Below are positions 1,938-52,959 of a stretch of 64,000 nt of DNA, in pieces (within the stretch, counting starts at the first letter, position 1; each line of letters starts with the position of its first letter). The stretch comes from Deroplatys truncata (taxonomy: Eukaryota > Arthropoda > Insecta > Mantodea > Mantidae): positions 173,188,096-173,252,095 of the forward strand of contig CM060985.1 of the NCBI GenBank assembly GCA_030765065.1, in the 5' to 3' direction. Position numbers and translations under genes: made by a program. Below the pieces are notes generated by a model that saw only the letters and a list, made by a program, of their open reading frames with translations, had not been told where the DNA came from and made no database searches.

Positions 1938-2727
1938 TTTTACCTTTTCTACTACGTATAGTAAGTAGGGGAAGTCTTGCATTCCACCCAAAAATTCGAT
2001 GCCGAGATTTCACTGGAAATGAGGTGCCCTGAATCCAAAAGAAGCAATATCTCCGTGTGTGTGTGAACGGCATAACTCAAAAAGGAAAATGAGGATAAAT
2101 ACCAAACTTGGTATTTGAATTTAGTATCTTCAAAGGACACGCCCCAAACTACCCTTTACATGGGACATTTTTGTAAATTTTGATTTTCTCAAAAATGGCT
2201 CTAACGATTTTGATTAAAATATCATATGTTTAAGATATTTTCATGACAAATGAAATGTATGTCTTGAAGTTTCTGGGAATGTCCGCAGAAGTCATCTTCA
2301 TTCTCAATAGCTTTCGCATATAACTGGGAAACCGTTATAGATTTTACTGCACAAATAATGTAGATCTGGTTAAAACACACTTTATGTCGTATACACTTTT
2401 TTCGCCGAGTGAACCATTTCCGAGATATTCCTTGTTATTTGTTTGAATTTTCCGATGCTTATACCTTTTCTCAAATAGAATTCGTTATTCATTTTTTTTT
2501 GTCCTGGTTATGCAAAGAGAATGGAATGCGCCACATAGCAACCAGCTCTTAAAACATTTGACTATCGCTTAAAGCCTACCATATTCCCCTTGCATCTACA
2601 AGAAAATTAGCAATGATAGTTTCTGCAAATGTTTATCTACTAACATGAAATAGATGGAGAATAAGCGTTTGTAAAAATAATTGTACTACAAGTGTAGAGA
2701 AAGTCATGTGACTGCAACACATCATTT
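1938..2727 (+). mobile_element. Family A dispersed repeat, copy 1
   Basis: Starts at the T-rich run before CTTTTCTACTACG and ends at GTAGAGAAAGTCATGTGAC followed by CAACACATC. All blocks of the family are in order: CCACCCAAAAATTCGAT, GAACGGCATAACTC, TACCAAACTTGGTATTT, TCTAACGATTTTGATTAAAAT and GACTATCGCTTAAAGCC. No transposase or reverse transcriptase is encoded, so the element is non-autonomous or of unknown class. It runs straight into copy 2 in the same direction. Confidence 0.85.
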
Positions 2728-3565
2728 TTACTTTCTCTACTACGTATAGTAAGTAGGGGAAGTGTTGTATTCCACCCAAAAATTCGATACCGAGATTTCA
2801 CCGGAAATATATGTTTCGAGGCGCTTATTAACCCAAAAAATGGCATGTTTAAAGAAAAGGCCTGTGTGTGTCTTTAAACAGCATAACTCAAAAACGAAAA
2901 GTCGGAAAGTATCAAACTTAGTATTCAAGTTCAATATCTTTCAAAGATGCGACACTAAGATTTTCAAGAAAACTTCCCCACTCTCTAATACGCTTTTCTG
3001 GAATATTTTTCGAAAATTTTGATTTTTTAAAAAAATGGATGTAACGATTTTGATTAAAATACCATATATTAAAGATATTTACATGACAAATAAAATGTAT
3101 ATTCTTATTTTCTGAAAACAGTCCTCTTCATTCAGAAGGAATTCTATAAGCGATAGATGAAAACGTACTACACAAAAAATGTAGATCTCTTTAAAACGCA
3201 GAATTTATTTTCCAATAACGTTGTTTGTGGCATCCGTCATTTCCGAGATAGCCCTTAGTAATGCTTCGAATTATCAATACGTTGTCATTCTTTTAAAGTC
3301 CTGTCGATTTTCAGTTGTTTCTCGCGATGTCATGGAAACAGTATGGAATTTTAAGGCCAGCATATAGCGTCCAGTTGTTAAACATTTGACTATCGCTGTT
3401 CTCTTTGTATCCATAACGAAATGTGTAATGTAGGTATTTCCGGAAGGTTTATTTGGATTAAAATGTAGTAAATAGGAAAATAAGCTTTGGTAAGATTAGT
3501 TTTGCATACCCGCTAATAATCAATAGAGAGCAGAGAAGATCATGTGAATTGACATCCGATGTTTT
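2728..3565 (+). mobile_element. Family A dispersed repeat, copy 2
   Basis: Begins TTTTACTTTCTCTACTACG directly after the end of copy 1, giving a head-to-tail dimer. The right half is of the second sequence subtype, with TTCTCTTTGTATCCATAACG and GGTTTATTTGGATTAAAATG. It ends near GCAGAGAAGATCATGTGAATT. No coding capacity. Confidence 0.85.
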
Positions 3566-3873: not shown

Positions 3874-4172
3874 TTTACAGGCTATTCCCAGAAGATTTAA
3901 GATATACATTTTATTTGTCACGTAAATATCTTTAATATATGGTATTTTAATCAAATTCGTTGACTGCTATTTTTTAGAAAATAAAACATTTCGAAAAAAG
4001 TCTCCATGTAAAGGGTAGTTGGGCGTGGGGGGGATTTTCTTGAAAATCTTCCTGTCCCAGTTTTAGAAGGTATTTATCCGATATTTTTTAGTTTCTGTTC
4101 ACAGATATGGGTTGAATGGAATACCTTCTCCACCTACTATGTACGTGATAGGGAAATTAAAAAGCTTAAAAG
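3566..4172 (-). mobile_element. Family A copy 3, inverted, carrying an (AT)n tract
   Basis: Reverse-strand copy joined tail-to-tail to copy 2 at TTTTTTCTATCCACTTC. It lacks the outer ~80 bp of the right end, so the junction is internal. It ends at the family left end near CTACTATGTACGTGATAGGG. The centre holds an AT microsatellite at 3,813-3,871. Confidence 0.75.
3813..3871. repeat. (AT)n microsatellite
   Basis: About 29 uninterrupted AT dinucleotides inside an inverted family A copy. The site differs from the TG-rich site used in the other copies. Confidence 0.95.
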
Positions 4173-8695: not shown

Positions 8696-8753
8696 CACAA
8701 ACAAGTGATGACTCGCGTCGGAAACTTTACAGCCTGTCACCTAAACGATATTA

Positions 8754-9999
8754 CGAGGGCATCCCAGAAGTACCCGACCTGATGTATAGATATTGGTTGT
8801 TTCAAACAAATGACTGTGGTATATTACTTAAGTTTGAAGTTTAATGATGCTACGTTGTTTAGTAATTGTTTGGCAGCCATTATTAGTGAACTATCTCAGC
8901 GAATTTGTAAACATGAATAAAACTGGCCATCGTTATGTGATACAATACTTTCATTTGAAAGGCCTTAGACAAACTAATATTAAAGCTGAGCTAGATTCTA
9001 CTCTGAGGGAGTCTGCTTCTTCGTTTACAACAGTAAAATATTGGGTGGCAGAGTTTAAGCGAGGCTCTACGAGCTGCCAACACGAACATCGCAGTGGTCG
9101 ACCAAATGAGGTGACCAGGCCAGAAATTGTGAAGAAAATCCAAAAAATGGTATTGCATGATTGTCGACTGAAAGTGCACGAGCTAGCAGACTTCGCAGGC
9201 ATTTCAAAAAGTGTTGTACATCGCATACTGACTGAAAATTTGGACATGAGAAAGCTATGCGTAAGACGGGTGCCGCGTTTACTCACAATGGAACAAAAGC
9301 AGCGTCGTGAAGATGTTTCAGTCCAGTGATTGGGAAGTTTTGCTGCAATAAAGCCGAGTTTTTGTGTCGATTCATAACCATGGATGAAACATGGGTCCAT
9401 CACTTCACACCTGAGACGAAGGAACAGTCAAAACAGTGGACTGAAAGGAGAGAAACGGCTCCAAAGATGCAGGCAAGGTCCTGGCGTCAGTTTTTTGGAA
9501 TGTGTGTGGAATATCATTGATTATCTTCAAAAAGGAAAAGTAATCAATGGTGAGTGTTATACAAACTTATTGCAGCATTTGAATGATGAAATCAAGCAAA
9601 AACGGCCGCATTTAGTGGAAAAGAAACTTTCGTTTCATCAAGACAATGCACCAGTTTACACGTCCATTATCGCCATGGCCAAAATCAATGAGTTAAAGTT
9701 CAAATTGCTTCCTCATGCACCTTATCGCCAGACTGAGCCCCCTCTGATTATTTTCTCTTTCCAAAGTTGAAGAAATGGCTTGGTGGTAAAAGGTTTGCCA
9801 ACAATGAAGAGGTGGAGTTTGCAGTTGAAGATTATTTTGCAGAACTCGACGGCTGTTACTATAAACAGGGTATGGAAGCTATTGAACATCGCTGGGAAAA
9901 GTGTGTCGAGCTGAAAGGGGACTATGTAGAGGAATAGATGTTTTCTCCCAAAATTTTTGTGTTTTCTTTATTAGGTCGGGTACTTCTAGGAAGCCCTCA
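8754..9999 (+). mobile_element. Mariner element, family M1, full length
   Basis: 1,246 bp flanked by TA on both sides (8,752-8,753 and 10,000-10,001). The left terminal inverted repeat starts CGAGGGCATCCC and ends TACCCGACCT; the right end is its imperfect complement (AGGTCGGGTACTTCTAGGAA then GCCCTC). Two other copies of the family occur at 16,403-17,248 and 26,529-27,789. The element keeps both ends but its transposase is broken. Confidence 0.93.
8913..9937 (+). pseudogene. Mariner (DD34D) transposase, frameshifted
   Basis: The transposase starts at MNKTGHRYVIQYFHLKGL. The N-terminal paired helix-turn-helix region includes SGRPNEV and ends in a linker with RRVPRLLTMEQKQRRED. Frameshifts near 9,325 and 9,430-9,480 break the frame. 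The catalytic blocks survive in separate frames: TMDETWVHHFTPET (first Asp), HQDNAPVYTS (second Asp) and a damaged third block at 9,720-9,770, where YSPDLAPSD has become YRQTEPPL by frameshift. The last frame ends in a normal stop at 9,935. An upstream in-frame ATG at 8,844 also exists, but family similarity starts at 8,913. Confidence 0.92.
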
Positions 10000-10149
10000 T
10001 AGCTATCATTAGATGACGGGTTTTTTTTGTTGGAGTTTTGTCGACCTCCCGCTGCTGGCTGTCTCGCGCAGTAGAGAGAGGCCGCGAGTGGGTTCGAATA
10101 TAGTTTAACTACCCTTTAGTTATACGGTTGCATTAGTTAGGTCGAAAAC

Positions 10150-10250: not shown

Positions 10251-11290
10251 AGTGGTATTTAGTCGTGGACTGTTTTAAAACTAAAATCCTACTTTCTAAC
10301 GTAAAGTGTTAGTACGAGCTAGAAGTATTTGGAATATGCGAACTGTGTATATGCATGCATGCATGGGGGCACATCACAAATGTAGTTACTACACCGTCTA
10401 GCAGTAATCAGAAAAACAAAAGTACGCAATAGCTTACAATATTTAGCTTTAACAGCGGTTTTACACGCGAAATCGGCAAACTTCTGTTCAAGATTTTGAT
10501 AACCCAATGTATATTTGTGAATTAATGGTAAAGACATGTGACTTGTTAGGTGATTCGTTGGAGTGGTGGTAATTATGCAAAATAGGCAATTTGATCAAGA
10601 AAAACACTGCAGAAATGTACTTTAGAAATATTTCCACATTTTATTTTTAAGATTTTATTGAATGATTCTGATAAGTGCAGCGGAATCTCGTGTTCTAGGG
10701 ACCTAAGGACTTTGGACAACATAAATGGGAAAACGTCTGAACATAAAACATAGGGATAGTGTCATAGCACTGAGATTCTGTACATTATCTTTTCAAGTAA
10801 GCCTGTTTCACGTTGCGACTTCATAACCTCTGTTTGTTAAGGTTACGTTGTTTAGCAGAGGCATTAGATTATTGCAACAGCAGCTTTGGTAAACTGATAT
10901 CACTTCTTAAATTCAGCATCCCTATGTGTTTCAAGTGAATCCTGCAAACCAAGCAGATTTGTTTATTAATGCGCAGTACAATTCCGTTATCAAATTCCAT
11001 ATACTCCACGAAATCGCTATTATCGTTAACCTCCGTTGTAGGCAGTTGATACAAGATGGCGTGCTTCCTTATATGAATAAGCATTTCCTTATTCGCCTGA
11101 AAGAGTAGCGTCTGTGTATTGAAAACCGCTGCTTAAGGACATCCTTGAAATAAGCGAAGACTATGAATTCGACCCTAATGGCCGTGCGCACCATCCTCGT
11201 TAAACAAATCCTTCAGGAACCTTCAGCTTACCACGGTAAGAATTTGACCGGGGTAATCATCACAGAAGCGGTGCACCAATGTTCACTGTG
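10251..11290. other. No gene recognised
   Basis: About 1 kb without a recognisable gene or repeat. Short open frames on both strands have no family motif. Confidence 0.45.
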
Positions 11291-11293
11291 GTG

Positions 11294-11590
11294 TCGTCCT
11301 CCGTGGACTAGTGGTACCGTGCTAGCCTCTGGTTCCCAAGGTCGCGGGTTCAAACCCGGCGGAGGGCGATGGATTTTTTTCGGGCGTAAAAATCCTAGGA
11401 CGGCTTCCTACGGAAGGGAAGTAAAGCCGGTGGTCCCGTGTCGTAGATTTACGGCACGTAAAAGAACCTCAAGCCTGATAAAGAGGCCTCTGAGCAAAAT
11501 TACCGGTGTTTCACGCCCAATATAGAATGGGACGCTAAGAACCATAGTAGTTAAAGAGCGTCCATAAATAAAACTCAATTTCAATTTCTT
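11294..11590 (+). mobile_element. tRNA-derived SINE, family S1, complete copy
   Basis: The head is tRNA-like: CCTCCGTGGACTAGTGGTAC holds the A box of a pol III internal promoter and GGTTCAAACCCGGCGGAGG holds the B box and the pairing end of an acceptor stem. The body follows (CGGGCGTAAA, GGGAAGTAAAGCC, GATAAAGAGGCCTCTGAG, AATATAGAATGGGACGCTAAG) and the end is AAACTCAATTTCAATTTC. SINEs are copied by a partner LINE and do not encode protein; the apparent open reading frame across it is incidental. Confidence 0.92.
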
Positions 11591-11993
11591 TCGGCGTGGT
11601 TATGTGGCAGCCGCTCACCTTGGTTGAGCGCACCGTTCATTGGAGGTAAACTCTACTGAACGCACCCGGATGTACATCACGTCGTCTGTTTTTCACTTGT
11701 TCTACCTCTTTGCTGAAGCGCATGCATGTAGTTCAGCGTGCAATGGAGGAAAGCAAAAGCAGACCCAAGTTTCTCTATTGCGTTATTAAATTCAATATCA
11801 ATTTTTAACAAAAGATAGAAAGTGCAGAGATAGAAGCAATAACTTTAAGCTGGACACGTGGGAAAAGCTGGCCTTACGAATGATTAGAAAAATATGCTCA
11901 ACTATTATAGACATTTTTCACTTTTCACACTGACTAAATTCCAGTTAGCTTAGCCGATATTCCTGAAAGACGGGCAGGAAAAGAAAGGAAAAA
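11591..11993. other. No gene recognised
   Basis: Spacer between a SINE and an inverted family A copy, with no recognisable coding or repeat content. Confidence 0.5.
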
Positions 11994-37404: not shown

Positions 37405-40220
37405 TGCCACCGGGCGTAGTTGGGTTGTTAGCACTGTGTACTACCGGACGATTTGGTTGTTGACAGTATGTACCACCAGACCAAGTTGGGTTGTTGACAG
37501 TATATACCAACGGGCCAAGTTGGGTTGTTGACAGTATATACCAACGGGCCAAGTTGGGTTGTTGACAGTATATACTACCGGACCAAGTTGGGTTGTTGAC
37601 AGTATATACCACCAGACCAAGTTGGGTTGTTGACAGTATATACCAACGGGCCAAGTTGGGTTGTTGACAGTATATACTACCGGACCAAGTTGGGTTGTTG
37701 ACAGTATATACTACCGGACCAAGTTGTGTTGTTGACAGTGTATACTACCGGACCAAGTTGGGTTGTTGACATTATATACCACCGGACCAAGTTGGGTTGT
37801 TGACAGTATATACTACCGGACCAAGTTGTGTTGTTGACATTATATGCCACCGGACCAAGTTGGGTTGTTGACATTATATACCACCGGACCAAGTTGGGTT
37901 GTTGACAGTATATACTACCGGACCAAGTTGGGTTGTTGACATTATATGCCACCGGACCAAGTTGGGTTGTTGACACTATATACTACCGGACCAAGTTGTG
38001 TTGTTGACAGTATATACTACCGGACCAAGTTGGGTTGTTGACAATATATACCACCGGACCAAGTTGTGTTGTTGACACTATATGCCACGGCATCTATGTG
38101 GGTTGTTGACAGTATATACCACTGGACCAAGTTTGGTTGTTGACAGTATATACTACCGGACCAAGTTGTGTTGTTGACACTATATGCCACCGCACCTAGG
38201 TGGGTTGTTGACAGTATATACTACCGGACCAAGTTGGGATGTTGACAGTATATACCACCGGACCAAGTTGTGTTGTTGACAGTGTATACTACCGGACCAA
38301 GTTGGGTTGTTGACAGTATATGCCACCGGACTAAGTTGGGTTGTTGACACTATATACTACCGGACCAAGTTGTGTTGTTGACAGTATATACTACCGGACC
38401 AACTTGTGTTGATGACAGTATATACTACCGGACCAACTTGTGTTGATGACAGTATATACTACCGGACCAAGTTGGGTTGTTGACAGTATATGCCACCGGA
38501 CTAAGTTGGGTTGTTGACAGTATATACTACCGGACCAAGTTGTGTTGTTGACAGTGCATACTACCGGACCAAGTTGGGTTGTTGACACTATATACTACCG
38601 GACCAAGTTGTGTTGTTGACAGTGTATACTACCGGACCAAGTTGGGTTGTTGACACTATATACTACCGGACCGAGTTGGGTTGACAGTATATGCCACCGG
38701 ACCAAGTTGGGTTGTTGACACTATAGTATCGGCCCAAGTTGGGTTGTTGACACTATATACTATCGGACCAAGTTGGGATGTTGACATTATATGCCACCGG
38801 ACCAAGGTGGGTTGTTGACAGTATATGCTACCGGACAAAAGTGCGTTGTTGACACTATATACTACCGCAATTAGTTGGATTGTTGACAGTATATGCTACC
38901 GGACCCAGTTAGGTTGTTGACGGTATATGCTACCGAACCGAGTTCGATTGTTGACAGTAAATGCTACCGGACCGATTTGGATTGTTGACAGTACATACTA
39001 CCGTACCAATTTGGTTGTCAGCAGTATGCTACCGGACCGATTTGGATTGTTGACAGTAAATGCTACCGGACCGATTTGGTTTGTTGACAGTAAATGCTAC
39101 CGGACCGATTTGGATTGTTGCCAGTACATACTACCGTACCAATTTGGTTGTCAGCAGTCTGCTACCGAACCGATTGGATTGTTGACAGTAAATTATATCG
39201 GACCGAGTTGGATTGTTGACAGTAAATGCTACCGGACCAAGTTGGGTTGTTGACACTATATACTAACGGAATTAGTTGGATTGTTGACAGTATATGCTAC
39301 CGGACCCAGTTAGGTTGTTGACGGTATATGCTACCGAACCGATTGGATTGTTGACAGTAAATGCTATCGGACCGAGTTGGATTGTTGACAGTATATGCTA
39401 TCATACCAATTTGGTTGTCAGCCGTATGCTACCGTGCCAAGTTAGATTGTTGACACTATATACTACCGGACCCAGTTATGTTGTTGACACTATATACTAC
39501 CGGAATTAGTTGGATTGTTGACAGTATATACCACCATACCAATTTGGTTGTCAGCAGTATGCTACCGGACCAAGTTGGATTGTTGACACTATATACTACC
39601 GGAATTAGTTGGGTTGTTGACAGTATATGCTACCGGACCAAGTTGGGTTGTTGACACTATATACTACCGGAATTAGTTGGGTTGTTGACAGTATATGCTA
39701 TCGTACCAATTTGGTTGTCAGCAGTATGCTACCGAGCCAAGTTGGATTGTTGACACTATATACTACCGGACCCAGTTAGGTTGTTGACACTATATACTAC
39801 CGGAATTAGTTGGATTTTTGACAGTATATACCACCGTACCAATTTGGTTGTCAGCAGTATGCTACCGGACCAAGTTGGATTGTTGACACTATATACTACC
39901 GGAATTAGTTGGGTTGTTGACAGTATATGCTACCGGACCAAGTTGGGTTGTTGTCAGTATATGCTACCGGACCCAGTTAGGTTGACGGTAATTGCTACCG
40001 GGCCGAGTTGGATTGTTTACAGTATATACCACCGTACCAATTTGGTTGTCATTATACTACCGGACCGAGTTGGATTGTTGACAGTAAATGCCTGCTGGGC
40101 CGAGTTGGATTGTTGACAGTAAATGCTGCCGGACCGAGTTGGATTGTTGACAGTATATACTACCGTACCAATTTGGTTGTCAGCAGTATGCTACCGAACC
40201 GATTGGATTGTTGACATTTT
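37405..40220. repeat. 34-bp minisatellite array, about 80 units
   Basis: Tandem units of 34 bp, for example successive CGGACC starts at 37,681, 37,715 and 37,749. The core reads ACCGGACCAAGTTGGGTTGT then TGACAGTATATACT. The left half (to about 38,800) is fairly uniform, with G/T and TAT/TGT variants. The right half mixes units with ACCGATTTGGATTGTTGACA and a shorter unit with ACCAATTTGGTTGTCAGCAG, which recurs about every 133 bp, a higher-order period of roughly four units. Because 34 is not a multiple of three, all frames stay partly open; the long apparent reading frames are by-products of the repeat. Confidence 0.97.
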
Positions 40221-43682: not shown

Positions 43683-44367
43683 TGTTAAGTAATGCCTTTT
43701 AAAGATGTCATCTAGCCATTATTTGCGAGGAAATGTTGGCAACACTGGTTCCCAGTGTAATTGCTTGTTTGAGTTGTAACATACGTGTGATTTCCACATA
43801 TTTATTATCTCGTGTTAGTCAGAGCTGCTCCCGAGGTGTACAGGATGAATCACGTTCACTGATCTCATTCCCTGTTATCTGGAGATATTGATTGTCGGTG
43901 ACGTGATCCAACATCATTTCACCGTTGGAAAAGCTTAGTATACCATGCTGTATACCAAAAGGATGTATTGCATTCCACCCAAAAATTCTATGTCGAAATT
44001 TCACCAGAAATGCACGTTTTGAGGCACCATAAATCTCTCACCCCAAAATCAGTTTTGCGCGTGCGCCTGTAAATAGCTTAACGCAAAAACAATATGCCAA
44101 TAAATACCAAAGGCACCTTCTAAACATTAGTCCTCCGTGGGGCAGTGGTTAGTTACCATGCTAGACTCTAGTTCCCGCGGTCTCGGGTTCAAACACGGCG
44201 GAGGGCGATGGATTTTTTTCGGGCTTCCTTCGGAATGGAAGTAAAGCCGATGGTCCCATGTCGTAGATTTACGGCACGTAAAAGAACCTCAAGCCCGAAA
44301 AAGAGGCCTATGAAAAATTTCCGGTCTTTCACGCCCAATATAGAATGGGACGCTGAAGACCGTAGTA

Positions 44368-45346
44368 CAGGGTGAACCAAAAGACTCCGAACCGCTTGCG
44401 CGGTATTTTTACTGTCCGCGTCCTCGACGTCTGCTGCTACCATAGAAAGACGCGGATGAAACCATACATTTTTAAAACTACTTTTAAAGGCTTTACTTTA
44501 CCAACTTTATGAAAGGAAATGTTGAAACTGGCCACTGTCGATGTCCATACATTTTTGGCACTTGTTTAGAAAACTATCCATCATGGAATTTTTCAAACGA
44601 TGACCGATGTCGTCTAATGTTTCTTCGGTAAGAACCGAACGCCGTCTTTTAGATTTCTTAGCCTGAACACTTCCTGTGGCCTGAAATTTACTATAAAGTT
44701 CATGGATTGTCGTACGGCCTGGGATTTTTACACCTGGAAATGTTTCTGCAAATCGTACTTTCACTTGGCGAGCTGACCGAGTTAACATATACTAATCTTA
44801 AGTAAATACACGCTGTGCAGTAGAAAAGATGCTGAGTCATAATATACTTTGTGACTAAGTACAGGACAAAGTAATAAATAACTCGTAATAACTGAACTAC
44901 ATCACATCACCGTCAACTCAATACTGCACTTCACACTGCACAGCAAAACAACAACGTAACTTTGTTTATAGCAGCAGTGCGTTATCATGTTTTAACATAT
45001 TTCCACACGCCCAGTGGAAAAAGGCCGCGCAGCCGGTAATATTGTTCATAAAATGTACAAGACAAACCTACACACCCTGGAAGAATTAAAATAATATATC
45101 CGCCAGGAAATTTCTCAACGTGAACTACGGCGAGTTATGGATAGTTTCCTAAAGAGGTGTCAAAAATGTATGGACAACGGTGGTCAGTTTCAGCATCTCC
45201 TTTCATAAAGTTGGTAAGTAAAGCCTTTAAAAATAGTTTTGGAAATGTATGGTTTCATCCGCGCCTTTCTATGATGGCGGCGACAGCAAAGAGCGCGGAC
45301 AGGGAAAACACCGCGCAGGCGGTTCGGAGTGTTTTGGCTCACTCTG
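44368..45346 (-). mobile_element. Long-TIR mariner-like element L, copy 1
   Basis: 979 bp with TA on both sides (44,366-44,367 and 45,347-45,348). The ends read CAGGGTGAACCAAAAGACTC and, complemented, CAGAGTGAGCCAAAACACTC. Terminal inverted repeats are about 210 bp and include the last codons of the transposase, so both ends read outward as CQKCMDN..GQFQHLLS-like sequence. The centre holds a transposase N-terminus on the minus strand. Confidence 0.9.
44507..44788 (-). pseudogene. Transposase N-terminal domain fused to C-terminal tail
   Basis: The reading frame (93 codons) begins MLTRSARQVKVRFAETFPGV and continues IPGRTTIHELYSKFQATGSV, then QAKKSKRRRSVLTEETLDDI. This is the N-terminal helix-turn-helix region (DUF4817-like) of the mariner-like family whose catalytic block reads WPPRSPDLTPCDF. 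It then joins the C-terminal tail (MDSFLNKCQKCMD) without the catalytic core. A deletion derivative; it might bind element ends but cannot cut DNA. Confidence 0.75.
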
Positions 45347-45775
45347 TAGTTAAAGAGCGTCCATAAATAAAACTCAATTTAAATTTATCTTCTAAACTTG
45401 CGACACGATTCTGAAGAAACTCTCCCCACTCCAAATTATCCATTGCATGCAAAATGTTGACGTGTTTTATTTTCTCTAAAATTGCTCAAAAGATTTTGAT
45501 TAAAATATACGTTTAAATTATTTAACGTATATTTCGAATTTTCTGCGAAAGGTCCCTGAACTTTTAGAAGTAGGAAAAATCTTACTACACAAAAAATGTA
45601 GAGCTCGTTAAAGACGCAATTTATGTAACATGCTTTTTGTGAAGTAAACTCCGAGACATTGTTATTGATTTGAATTTTGAAATACTCCGTGTCTCTCTCG
45701 TGGTCATGCAAAGAGCATGGAATTTCAAAGCCATCGTACAGCGACCGCTCTGTAAGAAATTGACCACCACTGCGG

Positions 45776-48144: not shown

Positions 48145-48539
48145 GATGTCGTATGCGAGCTGATTATGTTATACGTAAGCTGGCCGTATCTGTACGAGTA
48201 TGTTGTGGGCTCCGTGGATCACCCACCACAACAAGATGAAGACGAGGCATATGAAGAAATTGACAGGCAGATTTTCGAAGTATGCTATAATGCATTAATG
48301 TAATGTTATATAGTGTAGTTAATCTATCAATTCATTTCCATCGCATTCCTTAATCGTAATCTGATTTCATGGTTTATAATACGTGAAAATGCTATGTAAT
48401 AACGTAAAGGACAATATTTTACTCGTATAGCAAGTTGTTATAGCACGATGCTAATAGTAAATTACTTTGCACGTAATAAATTATCAATGTGTTTTGAAAG
48501 GGTTAAATTTGGCAAAAAGACAACGTGTAAATATATATA
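48145..48539. other. No gene recognised
   Basis: A short plus-strand frame after the SINE (48,145-48,303) reads CELIMLYVSWPYLYEYVVGS then VDHPPQQDEDEAYEEIDRQI. It has no motif I can name and may be chance or a remnant. Confidence 0.35.
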
Positions 48540-49301
48540 CAGAGAGAGCCAAAAAACTACGAACCGGCTGCGCGGTGTTTTTCCTGTCCGCGTCCTCGGC
48601 GCTCGTTGCTGTCTGCCGCTATCATAGAAAGACGCGTACATTTTTAAAACTACTTTTAAAGGCTTTATTTACCAACTTTATGAAAGGAGATGCTGAAACT
48701 GGCCACCGTCGTTGTCCATACATTTTTGGCACCAATTTTTTTCGAATCAACAGCTGAAACCCGTGAATACAGTTTTGCTCCCTGTTTTTTAGAGAATTAA
48801 CAGACAGGGAGCGTGATTTTGTCTTTTTTCAACAAGACTCTGCAACAGCTCATACGGCTAATATTTCCATGAGAACAATTGAAAGTGCGTTTGGGGACAG
48901 AATTATTAGTAGAGATTTGTGGCCCCCTCGGTCCCCCGACCTAACTCCCTGCGATTTCTATCTCTGGGCTAACTTAAAACAAAGTGTACAAGACAAACCC
49001 AAACACCCTGGAAGAATTAAAACACAATATCCGCCAGGAAATTGCCAGCATTTCTCAACGTGAACTACGGCGAATGATGGATAGTTTCCGAAAGAGATGC
49101 CAAAAATGTATGGACAACGACGGTGGCCAGTTTCAGCATCTCCTTTCATAAAGTTGGTAAGTAAAGCCTTTAAAAGTAGTTTTAAAAATGTTGTATGGTT
49201 TCATCCGCGCCTTACTATAATAATGGCAACGGCAACGTGCGCCGAGGACGCAGACAGGAAAAACACCGCGCAGCCGGTTCGTAGTTTTTTGGCGTTCCTT
49301 G
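48540..49301 (+). mobile_element. Long-TIR mariner-like element L, copy 2
   Basis: The left end is CAGAGAGAGCCAAAAAACTA after TA (48,538-48,539). The right end is the complement of the same repeat but its outermost bases are altered (TTTTTTGGCGTTCCTTGTGT). Terminal repeats extend about 190-210 bp. The core between them encodes a piece of transposase on the plus strand. Confidence 0.85.
48800..49165 (+). pseudogene. Mariner-like transposase catalytic C-terminal fragment
   Basis: Plus strand: FVFFQQDSATAHTANISM (second catalytic Asp), FGDRIISRDLWPPRSPDLTP then CDFYLWANLKQSV (third Asp), and a C-terminus reaching MDSFRKRCQKCMDNDGGQFQ. Thirty-eight residues separate the two Asp residues, against about 41 in the rosa-type family I compare it with; three residues look deleted after ISRD. 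The N-terminus and first Asp are missing. Confidence 0.8.
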
Positions 49302-51770: not shown

Positions 51771-51772
51771 TA

Positions 51773-52546
51773 CAGAGAGAGCCAAAAAACTACGAACCGT
51801 CTGTGCGGTATTTTTCCTGTCCGCGTCCTCGGCGCTATCATAGAAAGGCGCGGATGAAACCATACAACATTTTTAAAACTACTTTTAAAGGCTTTACTTT
51901 CCAACTTTATGAAAGGAAACGCTGAAACTGGCACCGTCGTTGTCCATACATTTTTGGCACCTCTTTAGGAAACTATCCATCACTCGCAATTTTTTTCGAG
52001 TCAACAGTTGAAGCCCTTACATATGTGAATACCTACAATTTTGGCGCCTTTTTTTTTTAAAGAGAATTAACAGACAGGGGGCCTGATTTTGCCTTTTTTC
52101 AACAACACTCTGCAACAGTTCATACGGCCAATATTTCGATGAGAACAATTTGAAAGTGTGTTTGAGGACAGAATTATTAGTAGAGATTTGTGGCCCCCTC
52201 GGTCCCCCGGCCTAACCCCCTGCGATTTCTATCTGTGGGGTAACTTAAAACAAAGTGTACAAGACAAATCCACCCGGAAGAATTAAAACAAAATATCCGC
52301 CAGGAAATTTCTCAACGTGAACTACGGCGAGTGATGGATAGTTTCCTAAAGAAGTGCCAAAAATGTATGGACAACGACGGTGGCCAGTTTCAGCATCTCC
52401 TTTCATAAAGTTGGTAAGTAAAGCCTTTAAAAATGTTGTATGGTTTCATCCGCGCCTTTCTATGATAGCGGTAGACGGCAGCGAGCGCCGAGGAGGCGAA
52501 CAGGAAAAACATCGCGCTGCGGGTCGTAGTTTTTTGGCTCACCTTG
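51773..52546 (+). mobile_element. Long-TIR mariner-like element L, copy 3
   Basis: 774 bp with TA at 51,771-51,772 and 52,547-52,548. The left end CAGAGAGAGCCAAAAAACTA and right end (complement CAAGGTGAGCCAAAAAACTA) start inverted repeats of about 210 bp. The core has the same transposase piece as copy 2 (WPPRSPGLTPCDFYLWGNLK) with frameshifts; the SPD aspartate is Gly but the catalytic CDF is kept. Confidence 0.9.
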
Positions 52547-52548
52547 TA

Positions 52549-52959
52549 GTCTGTATCGCACAACAACGTATTGCACGACAGCAGCCTGTTGAGAGAATGC
52601 AGGAACAGAAGATTTTCGTGTCCTGGCCAGTTTGCGCAGTCGCCAGCCACAGTAAATTCGATAATGAAGTGCTCGGAATGCATAACGACGAATAGTGGGA
52701 GTGAAAGAAATAGCCGGTGATTGCCTACAGAAGAGTAACTGTTTTAAGGTCAAGCGAAGCTAAACGAGGGCAGACGGAGCCTGTTTGTAGAGAAGACCAA
52801 AAGAAAAGAAAAAGAAAAACAAGGCCATCCGGTGATATACGCTCGTCAGACTACAGAGCCTTTGGCTGGCGTCCTGCACACGTACCACTACTTCATTTGG
52901 GTTCAGAGTCCTCGCAGCACACGACATTCCCTACTCGCTCTTCCACAAACTATTCTTAC
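52549..52959. other. No gene recognised
   Basis: Somewhat GC-richer spacer. Short frames on both strands have no motif I can assign. Confidence 0.4.

Follow-up and report, generated by a model that had tools for sequence, protein, structure and literature searches.

Nested insertions of a Helentron-like family, a SINE and a putative derivative of a mirrored Tc1/mariner-superfamily transposon

Structure of the Locus

Three insertions lie one inside the other in a stretch of 64,000 nucleotides, referred to here as the window (Table 1). A copy of a repeat designated family A is interrupted at 44125/45389 by an S1 SINE, and the SINE is in turn interrupted at 44367/45347 by a third element, designated L. 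The nest of family A, SINE and L is real to the base, and in itself it is ordinary.

Table 1. Features of the nest and of related copies in the window (positions are those of the window; a point marks features without strand)
Feature	Position	Strand	Basis or remark
Family A copy (Helentron-like, HINE-type), left part including the target duplication	43961..44125	+	BLAST against other family A copies; alignment of the restored copy
Target-site duplication, left copy, CTTCTAAAC	44117..44125, possibly to 44127 as CTTCTAAACAT	.	
S1 SINE, left part, ending in the TA target	44128..44367	+	start at 44126-44128, depending on duplication length
Element L between two TAs, read as non-autonomous and derived by deletion from a mirrored Tc1/mariner-superfamily transposon	44368..45346	+	
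L, left arm, equivalent to the transposase gene's 3' end	44368..44581	-	colinear with E1
Relic of the transposase N-terminus (DUF4817 helix-turn-helix)	44582..44830, approximate	-	consensus translation 25.2 bits, cut-off 22.6
22-bp relic of the original 5' TIR	45016..45037	-	21/22 identical to the TIR in the consensus
L, right arm, the 3' end repeated in inverted orientation with codons of the transposase C-terminus	45056..45346, start approximate	+	
S1 SINE, right part with the second TA (45347-45348) and the 3' tail	45347..45388	+	
Target-site duplication, right copy, CTTCTAAAC	45389..45397, possibly to 45399	.	
Family A copy, right part	45398..45764	+	BLAST; alignment of the restored copy
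Intact S1 SINE serving as the reference copy	11294..11590	+	
Related derivative of another type, with QQDSATAHT and SPDLTPCDF between two 3'-type arms, lacking the right tip	48538..49292	+	
Second copy of the 48538-type derivative	51771..52550	+	

The order of the insertions had been proposed in a preliminary description from a 9-bp repeat around the SINE, a TA on either side of L within the SINE and the match of the rejoined SINE to the intact copy, and excision followed by realignment had been named as the check. L starts with CAGGGTGAACC directly after the left TA and ends in CACTCTG directly before the right one. Excision of L together with one TA yields CCGTAGTAGTTAAAGAG, where the intact SINE has CCATAGTAGTTAAAGAG. 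The alignment of the restored SINE is continuous across the joint over 272 sites, with a gap of ~20 bp and smaller gaps, and that of restored family A is continuous over 561 sites; the proposed order was thereby confirmed, as both restored copies align through their junctions.

The 9-bp repeat was found to be a duplication and not a feature of the family A consensus. At the site of CTTCTAAAC, one homologous stretch, never doubled, is present in the 15 other window copies chosen and in the young consensus. An exact shared repeat of at least 9 bases between two 15-base stretches was obtained for 20 of 20,000 random pairs of window sites. The two bases following CTTCTAAAC are AT on the left and TT on the right, with A at the differing position in 13 of the 15 aligned family A copies, so that the duplication may comprise 11 bp, CTTCTAAACAT, with one later change.

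The Outer and Middle Layers

Family A occupies 17184 of the 64000 window bases (26.9%) in 21 merged intervals within 1930-59351, and some of its copies stand head to tail, for instance 1937-2722 adjoining 2725-3549. Its young consensus, built from the best genome matches to the window copy a42830, is 853 bp long and shows a GT run and T-run borders. Subterminal inverted repeats were located at 6-16 (ACTTTCTCTAC) and at 815-825 (GTAGAGAAAGT) of the 853 positions, and the 3' tail holds a small palindrome, ATGTG...CACAT, with a weak fold of -3.6 kcal/mol. No flanking duplication was evident by eye in 30 loci. Judged by these sequence features, family A fits HINE/DINE-1-like elements, which are non-autonomous Helentrons. 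The window also holds a 34-bp minisatellite of 83.5 copies (37418-40216) and a long inverted repeat pair (8752-10001 / 27791-26527) whose members are 84% identical over 1293 aligned bases.

In the S1 SINE, motifs were noticed by eye which we take to resemble the A and B boxes of RNA polymerase III. The tail is variable, rich in T and A, and made of short tandem repeats. Target duplications of ~8-14 bp were seen by eye in many of 30 fetched rows, and the intact window copy shows no clear one. For the head, no tRNA match was obtained by ARAGORN in the window or by Rfam in 11200-11700, and a text search for the SINE core string gave no match.

Divergence and Relative Ages

Comparison of the divergence of each layer, also put forward in the preliminary description, gave the same order as the nest. 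Restored family A differs by 27.8% from the young consensus over 561 sites (26% from the window majority), the restored SINE by 9.9% from its family consensus over 272 sites (8.9% without CpG), and the window copy of L by 5.4% from the L consensus over 978 sites (2.7-5.4% among 20 L loci); divergence thus declines inward in agreement with the nest, the three values being not strictly comparable, as each consensus rests on the genome sequences that best match a single window copy and the consensuses differ in breadth.

The further proposal that the locus fixes relative ages for three families was too broad. The window copies a34091, a11989, a42830 and a58522 of family A are only 3.3-4.5% from the young consensus, below the 5.4% of the L copy, and 30 fetched rows of family A are 6.4-8.7% from it with 30 flanking bases per side included, so that these ranges and the value for L are roughly comparable only. 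In the case of the SINE, 5 of the 30 fetched rows are identical to the consensus (0.0%), by which measure S1 is a very recently active family. Taken together, the young family A copies and the SINE copies at 0% indicate that the three families overlap in time; what the locus orders is three copies, not families.

Anatomy and Parentage of Element L

The consensus of L, built from 20 genome loci with the window copy among them, is 1056 bp long and has arms of 228 bp that are identical at 225 of 228 positions. In the window copy, the arms align with 183 identities, 26 mismatches and 6 gap positions. Both tips and both TAs are present in 13 of the 20 loci, the window copy included. On the minus strand, the DUF4817 N-terminus runs, by internal deletion, into the transposase C-terminus, and the right arm codes for the transposase C-terminus a second time, on the plus strand. 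In the transposon from which L derives, the 3' end recurs inverted in place of the 5' end and brings ~62 C-terminal transposase codons with it; within L, the 22-bp TIR piece sits at the position expected for the former 5' end of the minus-strand gene. The earlier label of a long-TIR element was correct as to the repeat and incomplete as to its nature, since the long TIR is the duplicated 3' end of the transposase gene. A second TIR-like site was not found within the arm (direct score 13 and inverted score 16, with the 95% level of shuffles at 17).

The parent of L was sought by protein search, in which 150 of 182029 first-look candidates were scored, and two relatives, E1 (contig C2, loci L081 and L083) and E2 (contig C11, which also carries the window), were chosen for their long open frames. 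E1 is 1758 bp long with TA on both sides and has an open frame of 347 codons. At its 5' end, 341 bp repeat the 3' end in inverted orientation with ~89% identity; ~187 bp of this arm are coding and correspond to the transposase C-terminus. Between the mirrored arm and the gene lie a short filler, then the 22-bp TIR relic and lastly the 5' UTR. E1 is the one full-length mirrored copy read (n = 1), and its arms differ by 11%. L is colinear with E1 except for E1 positions 964-1659 (696 bp), which it lacks. A head-to-head fusion from an already deleted element was dropped as the origin of L, as E1 carries the mirror in a full-length element. In E2, the 5' end is of the ordinary type, with an eroded tip and a short TIR (39 bp, 84.6%), and the frame comprises 338 codons. 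Mirrored and ordinary relatives therefore coexist in the same genome.

The catalytic triad of E1 was assigned by motif as D159-D243-D282, with 83 residues between the first two in E1 and 75 in E2. The second and third are separated by 38 residues in both, differing from the DD34D of mariner proper. The transposase matched DUF4817 with 31.9 bits and, in the PDB, Sleeping Beauty (E 4.6e-06, residues 237-334) and Mos1 (E 1.3e-04, residues 14-340). No Pfam DDE-transposase model matched at E 0.1, and the triad rests on the motif and the PDB alignment. L and E1 show the TA duplication and the helix-turn-helix of the Tc1/mariner superfamily, and E1 its DDE/D triad by motif. The initial designation of L as mariner-like was right. 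On sequence grounds, L is a deletion derivative of a Tc1/mariner-superfamily transposon with a DUF4817 helix-turn-helix and a DD38D triad. The copies at 48538 and 51771, in which part of the catalytic domain survives between two 3'-type arms, probably arose from mirrored elements through other deletions.

Abundance of Mirrored and Ordinary Ends

In the whole genome, the mirrored junction was matched at 4033 places with at most 3 mismatches (582 without mismatch) and the ordinary 5' end at 1073 places (68 listed without mismatch), the reversed-pattern controls giving 0 each; the patterns, made from known copies, differ in length (mirrored 36, ordinary 34), the mirrored count includes L, and such counts favour younger copies and hence reflect success and relative youth, not transposition rate. 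The recurrence of one junction pattern in thousands of places suggests that the mirrored type had one origin and was then amplified. The switch to the mirrored arrangement seems single and datable.

The 5' side was read at seven catalytic-domain places, namely E1, E2 and five short stretches, of which four were ordinary, one mirrored and two unclassed. A further three catalytic places follow ordinary 5' ends among the matches listed, 810-843 bases downstream of them; the mirrored matches listed come from C1 and part of C2 only, so that ordinary and mirrored types counted by position give no fair ratio. Among longer copies the ordinary type looks commoner, and the mirrored surplus may for that reason consist mostly of L.

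Proposed History and Alternatives

The whole is best explained, with high confidence, by the insertion of family A, then of the SINE and then of L, the last being derived from a mirrored transposon parent. In the first step, a Helentron-like family A element inserted and decayed. A SINE was then copied into it, with a target duplication of 9-11 bp as expected from target-primed reverse transcription. Finally, transposase presumably supplied in trans placed L at a TA of the SINE. The ancestor of L lost its outer 5' TIR, which was replaced by ~341 bp of inverted 3' end; the mirror and the filler arose most likely through faulty repair after excision, or when the element was joined to a truncated neighbour in inverted orientation. 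With two 3'-type ends at its disposal, the mirrored element would have been amplified, and an internal deletion of ~700 bp would have led to L.

The use of two 3' ends may itself have helped the mirrored type to spread, a proposition drawn from the mariner Mos1. Mos1 carrying two right (3') ends was reported to be 26-fold more active in vitro than the natural element (PMC4505599), and a ~20-fold increase was given for two 3' ends in another study (PMC3419177). According to the available text of both reports, natural mariners carry two unequal ends, though two identical 3' ends are better in vitro. In Mboumar-9, the left end and not the right is the preferred one (PMC4505599). By analogy, the mirrored element may be a natural counterpart of Mos1 with two 3' ends, and from the activity of that construct it could be expected to spread well. 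The 5' TIR relic is identical to the 3' TIR at 21 of 22 positions and gives no sign of an affinity difference such as Mos1 has, so that only the outermost bases or subterminal sequence could be the source of an advantage. The negative search for a second TIR-like site in the arm and the mostly ordinary class of the longer copies likewise speak against an advantage. The strongest form of this proposition, in which a lineage switched to two of its own 3' ends while keeping the full transposase frame, the configuration drove its amplification past the ordinary sisters, and L became the main non-autonomous product, is tentative, and we lean against it.

The case for and against a chance burst appears evenly balanced to us. 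The mirrored abundance would then reflect the success of one young deletion derivative, two 3' ends would confer no advantage, and the anatomy described above would be unaffected. The single structure shared by the 20 L loci, the near identity of the outer TIR at both original ends and the mostly ordinary class of the longer copies all accord with such a burst, whereas the presence of a second derivative type with two 3'-type arms, in two copies in the window, does not, nor does the preference for two 3' ends in Mos1 (PMC4505599, PMC3419177).

It is improbable that L became mirrored by itself, after its deletion, and has no kinship with any mirrored element of full length. The 22-bp relic and the breakpoint of the mirror recur in E1 together with a full transposase frame, and L is colinear with it, even though separate accidents could have given L and the 48538/51771 type their two 3'-type arms and most of the longer classable copies are ordinary.

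The exact junction between SINE and L was found once in the 4.29-Gb genome, at 1 of 47 places, the 46 others having 1-3 mismatches. Joint movement, in which L would have inserted into a source SINE before that SINE was copied into family A, is favoured by the few other places that resemble the junction at 1-3 mismatches, but it is very improbable given the uniqueness of the exact junction and the TA on either side of L within the SINE. At C12:45516584, C13:12867490, C3:109256699 and C4:173537645, the sequence resembles, with 1-3 mismatches, the same SINE site beside an L-type tip; these four places possibly mark a favoured TA within the SINE.

Both end arrangements are found in one genome with many descendants each, which would allow end asymmetry to be examined in a natural setting. 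Moreover, read-through RNA from the 341-bp inverted repeat with its coding sequence could fold into a long hairpin, and such a hairpin might act as a trigger of small-RNA silencing.

Comparison with Known Systems

S1 resembles tRNA-type SINEs with short tandem 3' tails in its A- and B-box-like motifs, variable tail and target duplications, and differs from them in a head that neither ARAGORN nor Rfam recognised. Family A resembles the DINE-1/HINE elements of PMC4067079 in its subterminal inverted repeats, GT microsatellite, 3' palindrome, T-run borders and lack of an evident duplication. In the mite families described in the available text of that paper, these repeats lie 2-4 nt from the 5' tip and 38-60 bp from the 3' tip, whereas the corresponding distances in family A are 5 nt and 28 bp.

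L and its parent are similar to Tc1/mariner transposons and their deletion-derived MITEs with respect to the TA target, the CAG...CTG tips and derivatives made by internal deletion, and the parent transposase can be aligned to those of Mos1 and Sleeping Beauty. The mirrored element is set apart from Tc1/mariner by the inverted 3' end with transposase codons at its 5' end, the DUF4817-type helix-turn-helix and the DD38D triad. In our literature searches, no report of TIRs made from an inverted 3' end with codons was found in the texts accessible, which is weak evidence and no proof of absence; for DD38D transposases, nothing beyond passing mention was found there.

Long TIRs have been reported elsewhere in the superfamily. 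A Bari1 variant of D. rhopaloa has identical long TIRs (PMC4877112), and the LTIR elements of aphids have DD40-41D triads (PMC5490172). As in those cases, long-TIR members occur beside short-TIR kin, one of them putatively autonomous; an inverted duplication of C-terminal coding sequence, as in the mirrored element, is not described for them in the accessible portions of the two papers. A further parallel is offered by the laboratory constructs 3T3 and RR of Mos1 (PMC3419177, PMC4505599), in which, according to the available text, both ends are likewise copies of one end. The mirrored element differs from them in being natural, in having ~341 bp duplicated as compared with a 28-bp ITR and in retaining the gene, and any advantage of it would follow from those constructs by analogy.
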